Below the pieces are notes generated by a model. The model ran no database searches and was not told the DNA's origin. It was given only the letters and a program-made list of their open reading frames with translations. From positions 43,600 to 107,599 of the forward strand of contig CALXBD010000151.1 of assembly GCA_944386445.1 (NCBI GenBank): 64,000 bases of DNA, written 5' to 3'. The DNA comes from an uncultured Clostridia bacterium. Lineage in GTDB: Bacteria > Bacillota > Clostridia > Oscillospirales > Ruminococcaceae. This document shows, in pieces, positions 5,170-26,902 of this stretch. How positions within the stretch are numbered: position 1 is the first letter of the stretch; every line of letters starts with the position of its first letter. Both the position numbers and the translations under genes were made by a program.

Positions 5170-6312
5170 TTATTCTATTTTTTCTGGAAAATTATCTAAA
5201 AGGGCACACGCCTGCCGGTATTGGCGGTTGGCTTTATACCATTCCATCACCCAGGGCATGTGAAACATGGCATAGCCGATGGGGAGCTTTTCCTTTAACT
5301 CCTGAAAACATTGAAGCAGCATTGTTCCATAACATGAGTCCTTCAGGTAATCCGGATGTTCCAGCCGGTATCGCACCAGATCCAGCATCATATGAGCCAA
5401 AGCCGGCTCCCAGGCATCATCTGGAATTCGTTTCTCCGCCGCGTCCAATGCAGTAAACGCTTCATCAGGTTTACCCAGCTTTTCGCAGCAGATCGCCAAC
5501 TTATGGAATCCCATAGCGGAAAGATTGTCCTTCTGAGAAAAATAACGGTAGGCCTCTTCCGTCCTACCGCATTCCAGATTTGTGGCTGCGATGTTGTATT
5601 CCAGTACCTCAACAACGGTTTCCTGCTTCAGTGCTCTAGCCAGCCGTTCCGCTATCGTATAATGCTGCAGCATCCGGGGAATATCACGCATATTAGCGCA
5701 GCAGTTTCCCATATAGCTTTGACTATCCAGCATAAGAAAAGGATAACCTTCTTCTGCTGCGGTATCATAGGCTTGCCGCAGGACTTCCAGCGCAGCAATA
5801 TACTGTCCCTGGTTATGGTGGTACTCTCCGCAGGCCAGCAGCATCCAGGGAATTGGCCACAAGGCGACAGCTTCATTAAAACGCCGCTGCAGGGTTCGCT
5901 GCAATGCTAACTGGTGTTGATCCATAAGGCATTCCAGTTCTTCATCCAGCGGAGCAGGCTCTTCTTTCGCAAAAGCATCCAGCAGCAAGATATCCACCAT
6001 AAAAGGACTGCACTGCAGGTTTTCACCCAGATAATCCAGCTGTTGCTTTTCCTCCTGAAAAGCTGCCTTATTCCCGGATAAAAGCGCTTCCAGGCATCGT
6101 TTGATCTGTTCTTCCAGTCCGGGTTTCCCGGTATTTTCCCAGTGTATACCCAATCGCGAAAACAGCGCCTCCAGTATTTCATCGGACGGGACAATTTTTC
6201 CCTGTTCAATCTTCGAAAGGTAGGAAACTGCACAAATTCCTTTGCACAGTCCCTCCTGGCTCCAATCCCTGCGGAGACGTTCCTTCCGGATCAACAATCC
6301 CGCCAAATTCAT
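5170..6312 (-). CDS. XRE-family HTH regulator with TPR-like C-terminal domain
   Basis: A 380-residue protein. Residues 6-57 form a Cro/C1-type helix-turn-helix (RRDWSQEGLCKGICAVSYLSKIEQGK). The rest is alpha-helical and fits tetratricopeptide-like repeats (for example ALEVLRQAYDTAAEEGYPF, and AGxEALTALDAAEKR-like blocks). This architecture is that of RRNPP-type regulators, which bind short peptides through the TPR part. No candidate pheromone gene is visible downstream before the terminator. Its ATG overlaps the hflX stop by 4 bases, so the two are translationally coupled. Target genes are unknown. Confidence 0.8.
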   Translation of the reverse strand: MNLAGLLIRKERLRRDWSQEGLCKGICAVSYLSKIEQGKIVPSDEILEALFSRLGIHWENTGKPGLEEQIKRCLEALLSGNKAAFQEEKQQLDYLGENLQCSPFMVDILLLDAFAKEEPAPLDEELECLMDQHQLALQRTLQRRFNEAVALWPIPWMLLACGEYHHNQGQYIAALEVLRQAYDTAAEEGYPFLMLDSQSYMGNCCANMRDIPRMLQHYTIAERLARALKQETVVEVLEYNIAATNLECGRTEEAYRYFSQKDNLSAMGFHKLAICCEKLGKPDEAFTALDAAEKRIPDDAWEPALAHMMLDLVRYRLEHPDYLKDSCYGTMLLQCFQELKEKLPIGYAMFHMPWVMEWYKANRQYRQACALLDNFPEKIE

Positions 6313-24781: not shown

Positions 24782-25249
24782 ATGCCGCAGGTTGAAATTA
24801 CAAATATGTGTATGATTCTGGATCCGGCTACCCAACGGGTAGTCGTCCAGAATCGGCAAAAATACTGGACTGGATTGGCCTTTCCCGGCGGACATTTGGA
24901 GAAAGGCGAAAGCTTGGTCGATTCCGCGATCCGCGAAGTTCGGGAAGAAACTGGACTGATTATTTCTGCACTGCAACATTGCGGTATCATTCACTGGGCT
25001 CGCACTGACGCTGATGAGCATTATTTTGTACATCTTTACCGGACAGAAACCTTTCATGGACAGTTGTTGACAGAAACTGATGAAGGGACCGTACAATGGA
25101 TGCCTTTGAAAGAATTGCTGACACAGTCTTCCACACGCTTAGCTCCGCATTTTCGGGAGTATTTGCGGCTGTTTTTGGATGATACGGTCTTTGAAGCATA
25201 TATTCCTTGGTCAAAAGTCGATAACACACAGGAGTTCTTTTATTATTGA
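24782..25249 (+). CDS. NUDIX hydrolase (8-oxo-dGTPase-like)
   Basis: A 155-residue protein with a complete NUDIX box at about 40-62, GGHLEKGESLVDSAIREVREETGL, where the REXXEE glutamates bind Mg2+. It opens with EITNMCMILD, a strand found in the YtkD/MutT-like 8-oxo-dGTP diphosphatases of Firmicutes. It probably cleaves nucleoside triphosphates or related diphosphates. It is directly downstream of gatB and is followed by a second, related NUDIX gene. Confidence 0.85.
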   Translation: MPQVEITNMCMILDPATQRVVVQNRQKYWTGLAFPGGHLEKGESLVDSAIREVREETGLIISALQHCGIIHWARTDADEHYFVHLYRTETFHGQLLTETDEGTVQWMPLKELLTQSSTRLAPHFREYLRLFLDDTVFEAYIPWSKVDNTQEFFYY

Positions 25250-25288
25250 TTCATGATTTGTTCATATTTGTTTGAAAGGACATAATTT

Positions 25289-25744
25289 ATGGACGTAGAA
25301 CTGACCAATATGTGTATGATATATGATCGAGCAAATGATCGTTTGCTGGCCGAGCGCCGTGAAAAAGGCTGGCCTGGCGTTTGTTTTCCGGGAGGACATG
25401 TGGATCCGGGCGAAAGCTTCTGCGCTTCTGCCATTCGTGAAGTATGGGAAGAAACTGGACTGACAGTTTCTAACTTGAAATTTTGCGGGATCGTACATTG
25501 GGATAACTTAAATACTGGAGATCAATATATCGTTTACCTATACCGGACGGAAACCTTTTCCGGAACGCTGCTGGAGCGCTCTGAAGAAGGTGAAGTGTTT
25601 TGGGTGGATCGGAAGGATTTTCTGGATCTTGATCTGGCTGAGAATTTTGCCGAACAGTACCAGATGTTTTGGCGAGATGAAATTGGTGAGATGTATATCC
25701 CACACGGAAATCAAATTCCAACATTCCAGTATAAAATTTTTTAG
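25289..25744 (+). CDS. NUDIX hydrolase, tandem paralogue
   Basis: A 151-residue protein colinear with the preceding NUDIX protein (ELTNMCMIYD, GGHVDPGESFCASAIREVWEETGL, FCGIVHWDNL). The NUDIX residues are all kept. The pair therefore arose by tandem duplication and has diverged, which suggests different substrates. A ribosome binding site GAAAGGA precedes the ATG. It is the last gene of the ligA-gatCAB run before a hairpin. Confidence 0.85.
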   Translation: MDVELTNMCMIYDRANDRLLAERREKGWPGVCFPGGHVDPGESFCASAIREVWEETGLTVSNLKFCGIVHWDNLNTGDQYIVYLYRTETFSGTLLERSEEGEVFWVDRKDFLDLDLAENFAEQYQMFWRDEIGEMYIPHGNQIPTFQYKIF

Positions 25745-25800: not shown

Positions 25801-25830
25801 AATTTCGCAAAATATAAATTTAGCGAAATT
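25801..25830. other. dif-like palindromic site upstream of the Xer recombinase gene
   Basis: AATTTCGC (25801-25808) and GCGAAATT (25823-25830) are inverted. The inner 28 bp divide into an 11-bp left arm ATTTCGCAAAA, a 6-bp centre TATAAA and an 11-bp right arm TTTAGCGAAAT, the 11-6-11 geometry of dif sites. Its near-perfect symmetry recalls the difH site of single-recombinase XerH systems more than the classical XerC/XerD dif. It lies 8 nt before the ribosome binding site, so binding could also repress the gene; the central TATAAA could serve as a -10. Confidence 0.55.
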
Positions 25831-25847
25831 AAGAGGAGGAAAAAACC

Positions 25848-26846
25848 ATGTCATATACTCCCAGCGACTATTCAGAGTGCCCGGGATTCCTGCGGGATTA
25901 CCTTTATTATCTGCTGACAATTAAAGGACGTTCCAAGCTGACGGTGGAAGGTTATTTTATAGATCTGCGGACTTATCTGCGATTTTTAAAACATTATAAA
26001 GGTTTGGTTTCTAAGGAAACTCCTTTAGACGAAATTTTAATTCAGGATGTACCACTTAGTCTGGTGGCGGAAGCAACCCTTTCTGATGTGTACGAGTTTC
26101 TCAATTACACCTTTTCGGAAAAATCGAACAATGCCCGCACGCGCGCTCGAAAGGTTTCTTCATTGCGAGGGTTCTATAAATATCTGACAACCAATGTGGC
26201 ATTGATTTCTTCCAACCCAGTTGAAAATTTGGAACTGCCTACGGCTAAAAAAGCACTTCCTTCCTATTTAAGTTTGGAGCAATGCTATGACCTTCTAAGA
26301 GCCTTTGATCAATCTGACCCGTATTATCCTAGAGATTTCTGTATGGTTACTTTGTTCTTAAATTGTGGGATGCGGTTGTCAGAAATGTCTGGACTGAATC
26401 TTACAAGCTTTCGCGATAATACATTGCGTGTTTTGGGAAAAGGAAATAAAGAAAGGATGCTGTACCTTAATAACGCCTGTATGAATGCTTTGAAGGAATA
26501 TCTGGCTTTTCGAGAGCAGCAAAAACCCATTTTGGATAAGGATGCATTGTTTTTAAACCGTAGCGGACGGCGTCTTGGTCAACGTCGAATTCAGCAGATC
26601 ATTACCGAACATCTGGAACGTGCTGGTCTGTCTCATATGGGATTTTCGACCCATAAGCTACGGCATACGGCGGCAACTATGATGTACCAATACGGCGATG
26701 TAGATGTCAAAGTGCTTCAGGAGATCCTCGGCCATGCCAATCTCAGTACAACTGAAATTTACACCCATGTTTCCAACCGCCAGCAGGAAGCTGCTTTGGC
26801 AAGCAATCCTCTCGCCAACTATAAAGAAAAGAAAAAAGAATCGTAA
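25848..26846 (+). CDS. Xer-like tyrosine recombinase
   Basis: A 332-residue tyrosine recombinase. An N-terminal SAM-like core-binding domain (about 10-115, RDYLYYLLTIKGRSKLTVEGYFIDLRTYLRF) precedes the catalytic domain (about 135-318) with all conserved residues: Arg176 (GMRLSE), Lys198 (GKGNKER), His269 and Arg272 (HKLRH), His296 (LGHANLSTTEIYTH) and nucleophile Tyr305. It is some 30 residues longer than typical XerC/XerD, mostly in an inserted stretch near 50-75. There is no phage context, an adjacent dif-like site precedes it and a copy of one arm follows it, so a chromosome-dimer resolvase or its autoregulated relative is more likely than an integrase. Confidence 0.85.
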   Translation: MSYTPSDYSECPGFLRDYLYYLLTIKGRSKLTVEGYFIDLRTYLRFLKHYKGLVSKETPLDEILIQDVPLSLVAEATLSDVYEFLNYTFSEKSNNARTRARKVSSLRGFYKYLTTNVALISSNPVENLELPTAKKALPSYLSLEQCYDLLRAFDQSDPYYPRDFCMVTLFLNCGMRLSEMSGLNLTSFRDNTLRVLGKGNKERMLYLNNACMNALKEYLAFREQQKPILDKDALFLNRSGRRLGQRRIQQIITEHLERAGLSHMGFSTHKLRHTAATMMYQYGDVDVKVLQEILGHANLSTTEIYTHVSNRQQEAALASNPLANYKEKKKES

Positions 26847-26888
26847 AAAGCACCCATGCAGACAGAGTTGTCCTGTATGGGTGCTTTT
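26846..26888. terminator. Bidirectional terminator between the Xer gene and glpK
   Basis: Perfect 12-bp stem AAAAGCACCCAT (26846-26857) with ATGGGTGCTTTT (26877-26888), with T-tracts on both strands. Confidence 0.9.
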
Positions 26889-26902
26889 AATTTCGCTAAA
26901 TT
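26889..26902. repeat. Inverted 14-bp copy of the dif-like right arm
   Basis: AATTTCGCTAAATT is the exact reverse complement of AATTTAGCGAAATT at 25817-25830. It follows the terminator and touches the glpK stop codon. A loosely matching GAAATT lies 16 bases further on, within glpK, so only one arm is well conserved. Confidence 0.7.

Follow-up and report, generated by a model that had tools for sequence, protein, structure and literature searches.

A candidate single-recombinase Xer/dif locus with a gene-linked, symmetric site at the replication terminus of Clostridia

Xer systems that use a single recombinase are described in several groups. XerS/difSL of streptococci and lactococci has one recombinase and a gene-linked site opposite the origin, and it depends on FtsK (PMC5357621, PMC3025954). 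XerH/difH of Helicobacter and Campylobacter likewise has one recombinase, with a site near its gene at the terminus (PMC5357621, PMC2731167); XerH is 354-362 aa long (PMC5357621), and the system shows only partial dyad symmetry, XerS/difSL likewise being symmetric only in part (PMC9765430). In the XerL/dif system of Legionellales, one recombinase, uninterrupted inverted-repeat arms and a dif-mimicking mobile element are reported, together with a plasmid-borne xer in Coxiella and a distance of more than 400 kb between dif and the XerL gene in L. pneumophila (PMC9765430). Archaeal XerA/dif combines a single recombinase with a 28-bp site and is described as FtsK-independent (PMC5357621). Gokushoviruses in E. 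coli were found to carry XerCD-binding motifs (PMC7062461). Of 100 Firmicutes, 97 were given a predicted classical dif by Kono et al.; C. perfringens and C. beijerinckii were left without one (PMC3025954).

In this study, we analysed a window of 64,000 nucleotides from an uncultured Clostridia bacterium, in which a dif-like site precedes a single Xer-type recombinase gene. The locus is similar to XerS/difSL in its one recombinase and in a gene-linked site opposite the origin. However, difSL is an atypical 31-bp site whereas the window site has 28 bp with symmetric arms, and the window protein reaches 130 bits on the XerS equivalog model against a cut-off of 267. With XerH/difH it shares the single recombinase, the gene-near site and the terminus, but its protein has 332 aa and XerH is not its closest solved relative. 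As in XerL/dif, there are one recombinase, symmetric arms, a mobile element at the site and a plasmid-borne xer; the gene linkage of the clostridial site and the different taxon set it apart. The 28-bp 11-6-11 layout, the terminus and the Xer catalytic domain are shared with XerCD/dif (E. coli; CodV/RipX of B. subtilis), as is the use by small phages, gokushoviruses there and a microvirus at the clostridial site. XerCD/dif, however, has two recombinases and unequal arms, whereas the window locus has one protein and near-equal arms. XerA/dif also joins a single recombinase to a 28-bp site, but the window protein scores 175 bits against the XerA cut-off of 220, and the archaeal system is described as FtsK-independent. 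The clostridial module combines symmetric arms, as in XerL, with gene linkage, as in XerS and XerH. No description of a clostridial single-recombinase Xer system was found in the titles and abstract openings of the open-access literature searched.

The locus consists of the following features.

25802..25812, + strand: left arm of the dif-like site, ATTTCGCAAAA; relatives carry this arm or ATTTCGCTAAA
25813..25818: 6-bp centre TATAAA, read from the sequence, where strand exchange would be expected
25819..25829, + strand: right arm of the dif-like site, TTTAGCGAAAT, read from the sequence as an inverted repeat with the left arm
25833..25839, + strand: likely ribosome-binding site GAGGAGG, read from the sequence
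25848..26846, + strand: single Xer-type tyrosine recombinase, 332 aa (open reading frame, Pfam, NCBIfam, alignment to E. coli XerD)
26846..26888, + strand: terminator-like hairpin after the gene, with 16-nt arms 26846-26861 and 26873-26888 (inverted-repeat search)
26889..26902, + strand: lone inverted copy of the right arm (half-site), AATTTCGCTAAATT, read from the sequence; probably a relic

The two arms of the 28-bp site form an inverted repeat with 10 of 11 pairs symmetric, and the 18-bp spacer (25830-25847) between the site and the ATG at 25848 contains GAGGAGG. This confirms the original prediction of a 28-bp, 11-6-11 near-palindrome 18 bp 5' of the recombinase ATG. That prediction named many genomic copies as an argument against itself; a pattern search of the 2.77-Mb draft source genome placed the 28-bp site at one position only. 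The neighbours of the gene, named by eye as gatB, Nudix and glpK, look like housekeeping genes. Two tandem Nudix-like genes (by eye; 24782-25744) precede the site.

Pfam assigned a Phage_integrase and an N-terminal SAM-like domain to the 332-aa protein. Residues R176, K198, H269, R272, H296 and Y305, positioned by alignment to E. coli XerD, were invariant in 25 aligned sequences. They correspond to the R-K-H-R-H-Y catalytic set of tyrosine recombinases, the class to which the window protein belongs by these residues. The protein scored 218.6 bits on the XerC model (TIGR02224, cut-off 335.15) and 199 bits on the XerD model (TIGR02225, cut-off 329.6), with XerA (175 bits) and XerS (130 bits) lower; it lies below both the XerC and XerD equivalog cut-offs, which are strict as judged from control genomes. 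Among solved structures, phmmer ranked E. coli XerD (98 bits) above XerA (81 bits) and XerH (70 bits), a ranking that leaves out the top row, 9i5v_14, which carries an unrelated molecule name. In a tree of 68 rows (46 family members, 20 clostridial XerD, and E. coli XerC and XerD), a branch with a long stem and 100/100 support separated the family from the clostridial XerD rows and from both E. coli proteins. The bootstrap of this tree is unsettled, XerS, XerH, XerL and XerA are absent from it, XerC is represented by E. coli only, and one row (XerD_G282, branch length 10) is probably a wrong-frame cut and should be ignored. The tree thus places the recombinase family in a clade of its own.

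We searched 41 genomes, including the source genome, with the family-level pattern (ATTTCGC-type) ATTTCGCTAAAT-N-TAAATTTAGCGAAAT, allowing up to 3 mismatches. The pattern matched 15 of the 41 genomes at one place in each, mostly on both strands because it is palindromic. The match started within 260 bp upstream of the family gene in 12 of the 15; the site lay 1.9 kb from the gene in G005, 10.7 kb away in G017 and on another contig in G008. The question of whether the site is unique and always beside the gene can be answered in two parts, as it was unique in all 15 pattern-bearing genomes and gene-adjacent in 12. Other lineages had the same geometry with other arms, among them ATTATACAAAA, ATTGAACAAAA, ATTGCACAAAA, ATTGCGTAAAA and ACGCAACAAAA.

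An initial scan, which accepted 11/11 palindromes whatever their core, gave 47 of 106 loci versus 7 of 2120 controls. The main scan required the core AAT-N4-ATT and at least 9/11 symmetric pairs within 500 nt upstream, at loci with at least 150 nt of upstream sequence. An adjacent upstream site was present in 98 of 186 loci versus 8 of 1860 resampled Markov controls, the 186 loci including near relatives and not being independent. Full symmetry was found in 69 of the 98 sites, which had been preselected at 9/11 or better, so that symmetry was a selection criterion. These 98 loci carried 73 distinct sites with 33 distinct left arms; the fixed centre ends were set by the search motif and hence carry no information. 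The median distance from the end of the site to the matched gene start was about 60 bp. Four of 190 loci (L009, L097, L120, L124) were dropped for too little upstream DNA, and two distant loci, L126 (37% identity) and L127 (32% identity), were retained. These results demonstrate that the site adjoins many orthologues, whereas a lack of conservation beside orthologues had been named as a reason to doubt it.

The remaining 88 of the 186 loci had no such symmetric site within 500 bp upstream. G161, G210, G302 and G032 have their gene at the skew switch, yet no site of at least 10/11 pairs adjoined it or was present in the sampled flanks; the sampled flanks of G211 and G127, which exclude the gene-adjacent DNA, also gave none. 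Both arms of one type occurred in XerD-containing genomes as well. The prediction that an adjacent symmetric site marks XerD-less genomes was refuted, as such a site was present at 27 of 40 loci with XerD and 21 of 40 without. Arm covariation by shuffling (95% match versus 55% when shuffled) was not used as evidence because the sites had been chosen for symmetry, which makes the comparison circular, and the resampled control was relied on instead. In G254 the family gene has a perfect site, ATTAGACAAAATAATAATTTTGTCTAAT (L315:19760), 15.7 kb upstream, and an insertion may have come between the two.

GC skew changed from plus to minus at the family gene in 15 of 16 genomes tested, the source contig among them, and the remaining one (G014) gave no clear call. 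On the source contig (107.6 kb), mean skew was +0.065 to the left of the site and -0.104 to the right, with one 8-kb stretch left of the site being negative. In G010, where the gene lies at 82 kb, the sampled skew turned from plus to minus within the interval from 20 to 160 kb, and one stretch at 640 kb broke the pattern; the same change was observed at the gene in G032, G019 and G023. Among 22 single-contig class genomes bearing the family, 10 were tested (8 with XerD and 2 without), and the 15-70 kb flanks were plus on the left and minus on the right of the gene in 10/10, wherever the record starts. Such a switch would be expected to be rare for a random gene, since by a rough estimate a stretch of this size makes up a few percent of a genome. 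The skew switch at the gene therefore indicates that the gene marks the replication terminus. It had been asked whether the site falls at the GC-skew switch; it does, and the window carries a single-copy dif-like site at the terminus.

An orthologue at E <= 1e-77 was found in 35 of the 41 genomes (source included), one in each. We also examined a class sample of 293 genomes, made up of genomes of at least 95% completeness plus the source genome. The family was present in 187 of the 293 and XerD in 159 (both at E <= 1e-70): 105 had both, 82 the family only, 54 XerD only and 52 neither. XerD thus co-occurs in 105 of 187 family-bearing genomes, and its gene immediately adjoins the family gene in G032 and G258; no convincing hybrid dif was found within 10 kb of the xer-xerD pair of G032. 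No gene in the 293 genomes exceeded the XerC cut-off, a strict one that only 2 of 5 control genomes with a match at E <= 1e-76 pass; those XerC-model rows at E <= 1e-76 that were compared by eye sit at XerD coordinates. In the source genome the sole strong XerD-model match was the window gene, and no strong XerD was found there or in the genus-mates G002, G004 and G005, the absence in the source being uncertain because it is a draft of 154 contigs and 86% complete. An XerC/XerD pair with a classical dif elsewhere had been named as counter-evidence: the source draft showed one strong Xer-type match and no XerC/XerD pair, while XerD coexists with the family in other class genomes. A loose-pattern search for the classical Firmicutes dif in 22 genomes was uninformative among the matches listed, because reversed-pattern controls gave similar numbers in most genomes. 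An FtsK gamma domain is encoded in the source genome (E 1e-30).

Mobile elements were found at such sites. In G017, of the same family, a 10.7-kb stretch (L257:3510-14223) separates the full site from the xer gene; it is bordered by two copies of the left half of the site and encodes a Zot-type protein, a Rep_trans replication initiator and MucBP-domain proteins. It ends about 65 bp before the gene in the second copy of the left half-site and its left flank, and by gene content it is an inovirus-like prophage at the dif-like site. In the viral record L284, presumably an isolate genome from the form of its identifier, a microvirus (capsid Phage_F, E 1e-172; replication protein) is flanked by a full site (153-180) and by a hybrid site (5378-5405) in which the right arm is retained; a radA-like host gene lies outside this interval. 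There was no second family gene in the G017 insert and no family gene in L284. Four pattern scans of viral contigs gave 47 loci, of which 41 had a site of at least 9/11 symmetry and 3 the family gene (E <= 1e-126); no such site was present in L285, L286, L288, L290, L291 and L292 (6 of 47). As a control, one palindrome was scrambled: it then matched 0 viral contigs, whereas the unscrambled palindrome matched 13. A terminase or portal gene was the next gene or the one after the site in 14 of 18 viral contigs examined, some of them near-copies; the other four had a helicase, an FtsK/SpoIIIE-like protein and, in two, no match. Phage_integrase was present in 5 of 20 viral records, many of which are fragments, and the claim that the tailed phages lack integrases was dropped on that account.

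The family gene was also present on seven plasmid records (E <= 1e-40). The 420,706-bp megaplasmid pRUMAL01 of R. albus 7 has its own xer, whose perfect site is at -47; the corresponding sites are 10/11 at -86 on Pusillibacter pMM59_01 and 8/11 at -71 on a Monoglobus plasmid. No convincing site was found by the family gene of the Aneurinibacillus and Geobacillus plasmids or of one of two Finegoldia plasmids.

Downstream of the gene, the 19 nt of 26884-26902 pair with 25817-25835 at 95% complementarity and include AATTTCGCTAAATT. The window has exact copies of this 14-mer at two places only, and at up to 1 mismatch the 2.77-Mb draft source genome also has two copies only. With up to 2 mismatches there were 5 matches in the window (three places, both strands) versus 1.27 expected, a number reached by 1 of 100 shuffles. 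The original prediction of a 14-bp exact inverted copy of the right arm after the terminator, improbable by chance, holds up, with the qualification that it is one arm and not a complete second site. The bases beyond it are the end of an opposite-strand open frame (glpK by eye), so that this single arm does not form a recombination partner in its present state. Near the gene, a further exact 12-nt arm was found in 6 of 98 loci versus 9 of 1828 for foreign arms, and four of the six are in the genus of the window, its own locus included. In L006, L007 and G005 the half-arm is upstream and overlaps the position where a Nudix-like frame stops; L008 likewise has its half-arm upstream, where no frame was called, and in the window it is downstream. 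The downstream half-arm is probably a relic of an old integration, insertion or rearrangement at the site.

The original prediction had proposed a compact single-recombinase Xer/dif locus in a clostridium, and this is well supported by the recurrence, single copy and terminus position of the site. We regard the locus as very probably a compact dimer-resolution module at the replication terminus. The recombinase, which we label XerX, would bind both near-identical 11-bp arms beside its own gene. A chromosome dimer would carry the site twice, once in each half; FtsK, acting by way of its gamma domain, would most likely pair the two copies at division, and strands would be exchanged across the 6-bp centre to give two monomers. 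One protein, two near-equal arms, the terminus and the FtsK gamma domain fit FtsK-guided dimer resolution by a single recombinase. The site might also mediate autoregulation of the gene.

Alternatively, the protein could be a divergent XerC that acts with XerD at a classical dif, with the adjacent palindrome being secondary. Its nearest NCBIfam models are XerC and XerD, three plasmid records name relatives XerC, and XerD is present in 105 of the 187 family-bearing genomes, adjoining the gene in two. However, the protein falls below both equivalog cut-offs, both arms are of one type even where XerD is present, and the source genome and three genus-mates have no strong XerD. The family also lies beyond a 100/100 branch with a long stem, in a tree whose XerC is that of E. 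coli only, and we consider a divergent XerC unlikely. The palindrome might instead be an operator for control of the gene, by the recombinase itself or by some other regulator, and not a crossover site. Its position 18 bp before the ATG in the window, and a median of about 60 bp before the gene elsewhere, would suit this. Sites 1.9 kb (G005), 10.7 kb (G017) and, for a perfect one, 15.7 kb (G254) from the gene argue against it, as do the absence of the family gene from most site-bearing viral loci, the prophages at the site and the terminus position, which together make an operator quite improbable.

We consider it very improbable that the gene is a mobile-element integrase with the palindrome as its attachment site. 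The gene does occur on seven plasmid records and elements are found at the site, but 35 of 41 genomes carry exactly one orthologue, its position coincides with the skew switch in 15 of the 16 genomes tested, its window neighbours look like housekeeping genes (names by eye), and the G017 insert and L284 bring no family gene of their own. The original prediction also raised inversion of the gene between the upstream site and the downstream arm. The 14-bp exact inverted copy at just two places in the genome would fit an invertible switch. However, the downstream element is one arm with the second absent, and the half-arm is on the other side of the gene in the same-genus relatives L006, L007, L008 and G005, so that a switch of this kind is extremely improbable.

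For the dimer-resolution module, a broader proposal can be made, to which we give somewhat less than even credence. Across Clostridia, a gene-linked symmetric dif and this single-recombinase family, and not XerCD, would resolve dimers. XerC proper would be missing, and the XerD of about half of the sampled genomes would either be an orphan that serves a different role or constitute a second, independent terminus system. The dif predictions published for clostridia would often mark the wrong sequence, megaplasmids would have a copy of the module to themselves, and it would be exploited by microviruses, inovirus-like phages and tailed phages. If the dimer-resolution reading is right, the family (found in 187 of 293 sampled genomes) provides much of a large bacterial class with a module for this task that is absent from the titles and abstract openings searched, and whose site is easy to recognise. 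It would also raise the question of why XerD persists beside the family in many genomes. The module would mark the terminus in draft genomes, provide small clostridial phages with an attachment site and possibly yield a marker-excision tool for clostridia. In one report, a predicted classical dif of C. acetobutylicum excised a selected marker at 36% versus 37% for a random repeat (PMC10312008), a comparison in which selection may hide a difference.

Diverse tailed phages have a host-type symmetric site by the terminase or portal gene (L229, L230, L231, L232, L233, L237, L242, L246), as do further tailed-phage contigs (L248, L252, L254, L255, L282, L283, L293). In the f35 loci L188, L191, L200, L206 and L217, a second AT-rich palindrome with TTATGTnAA arms is present downstream of the recombinase gene, within about 25 bp 3' of it in 5 of 6 loci checked. 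These arms resemble the XerD arm of the classical dif. The second palindrome may possibly represent one of two dif-type sites flanking a single gene, or a terminator.
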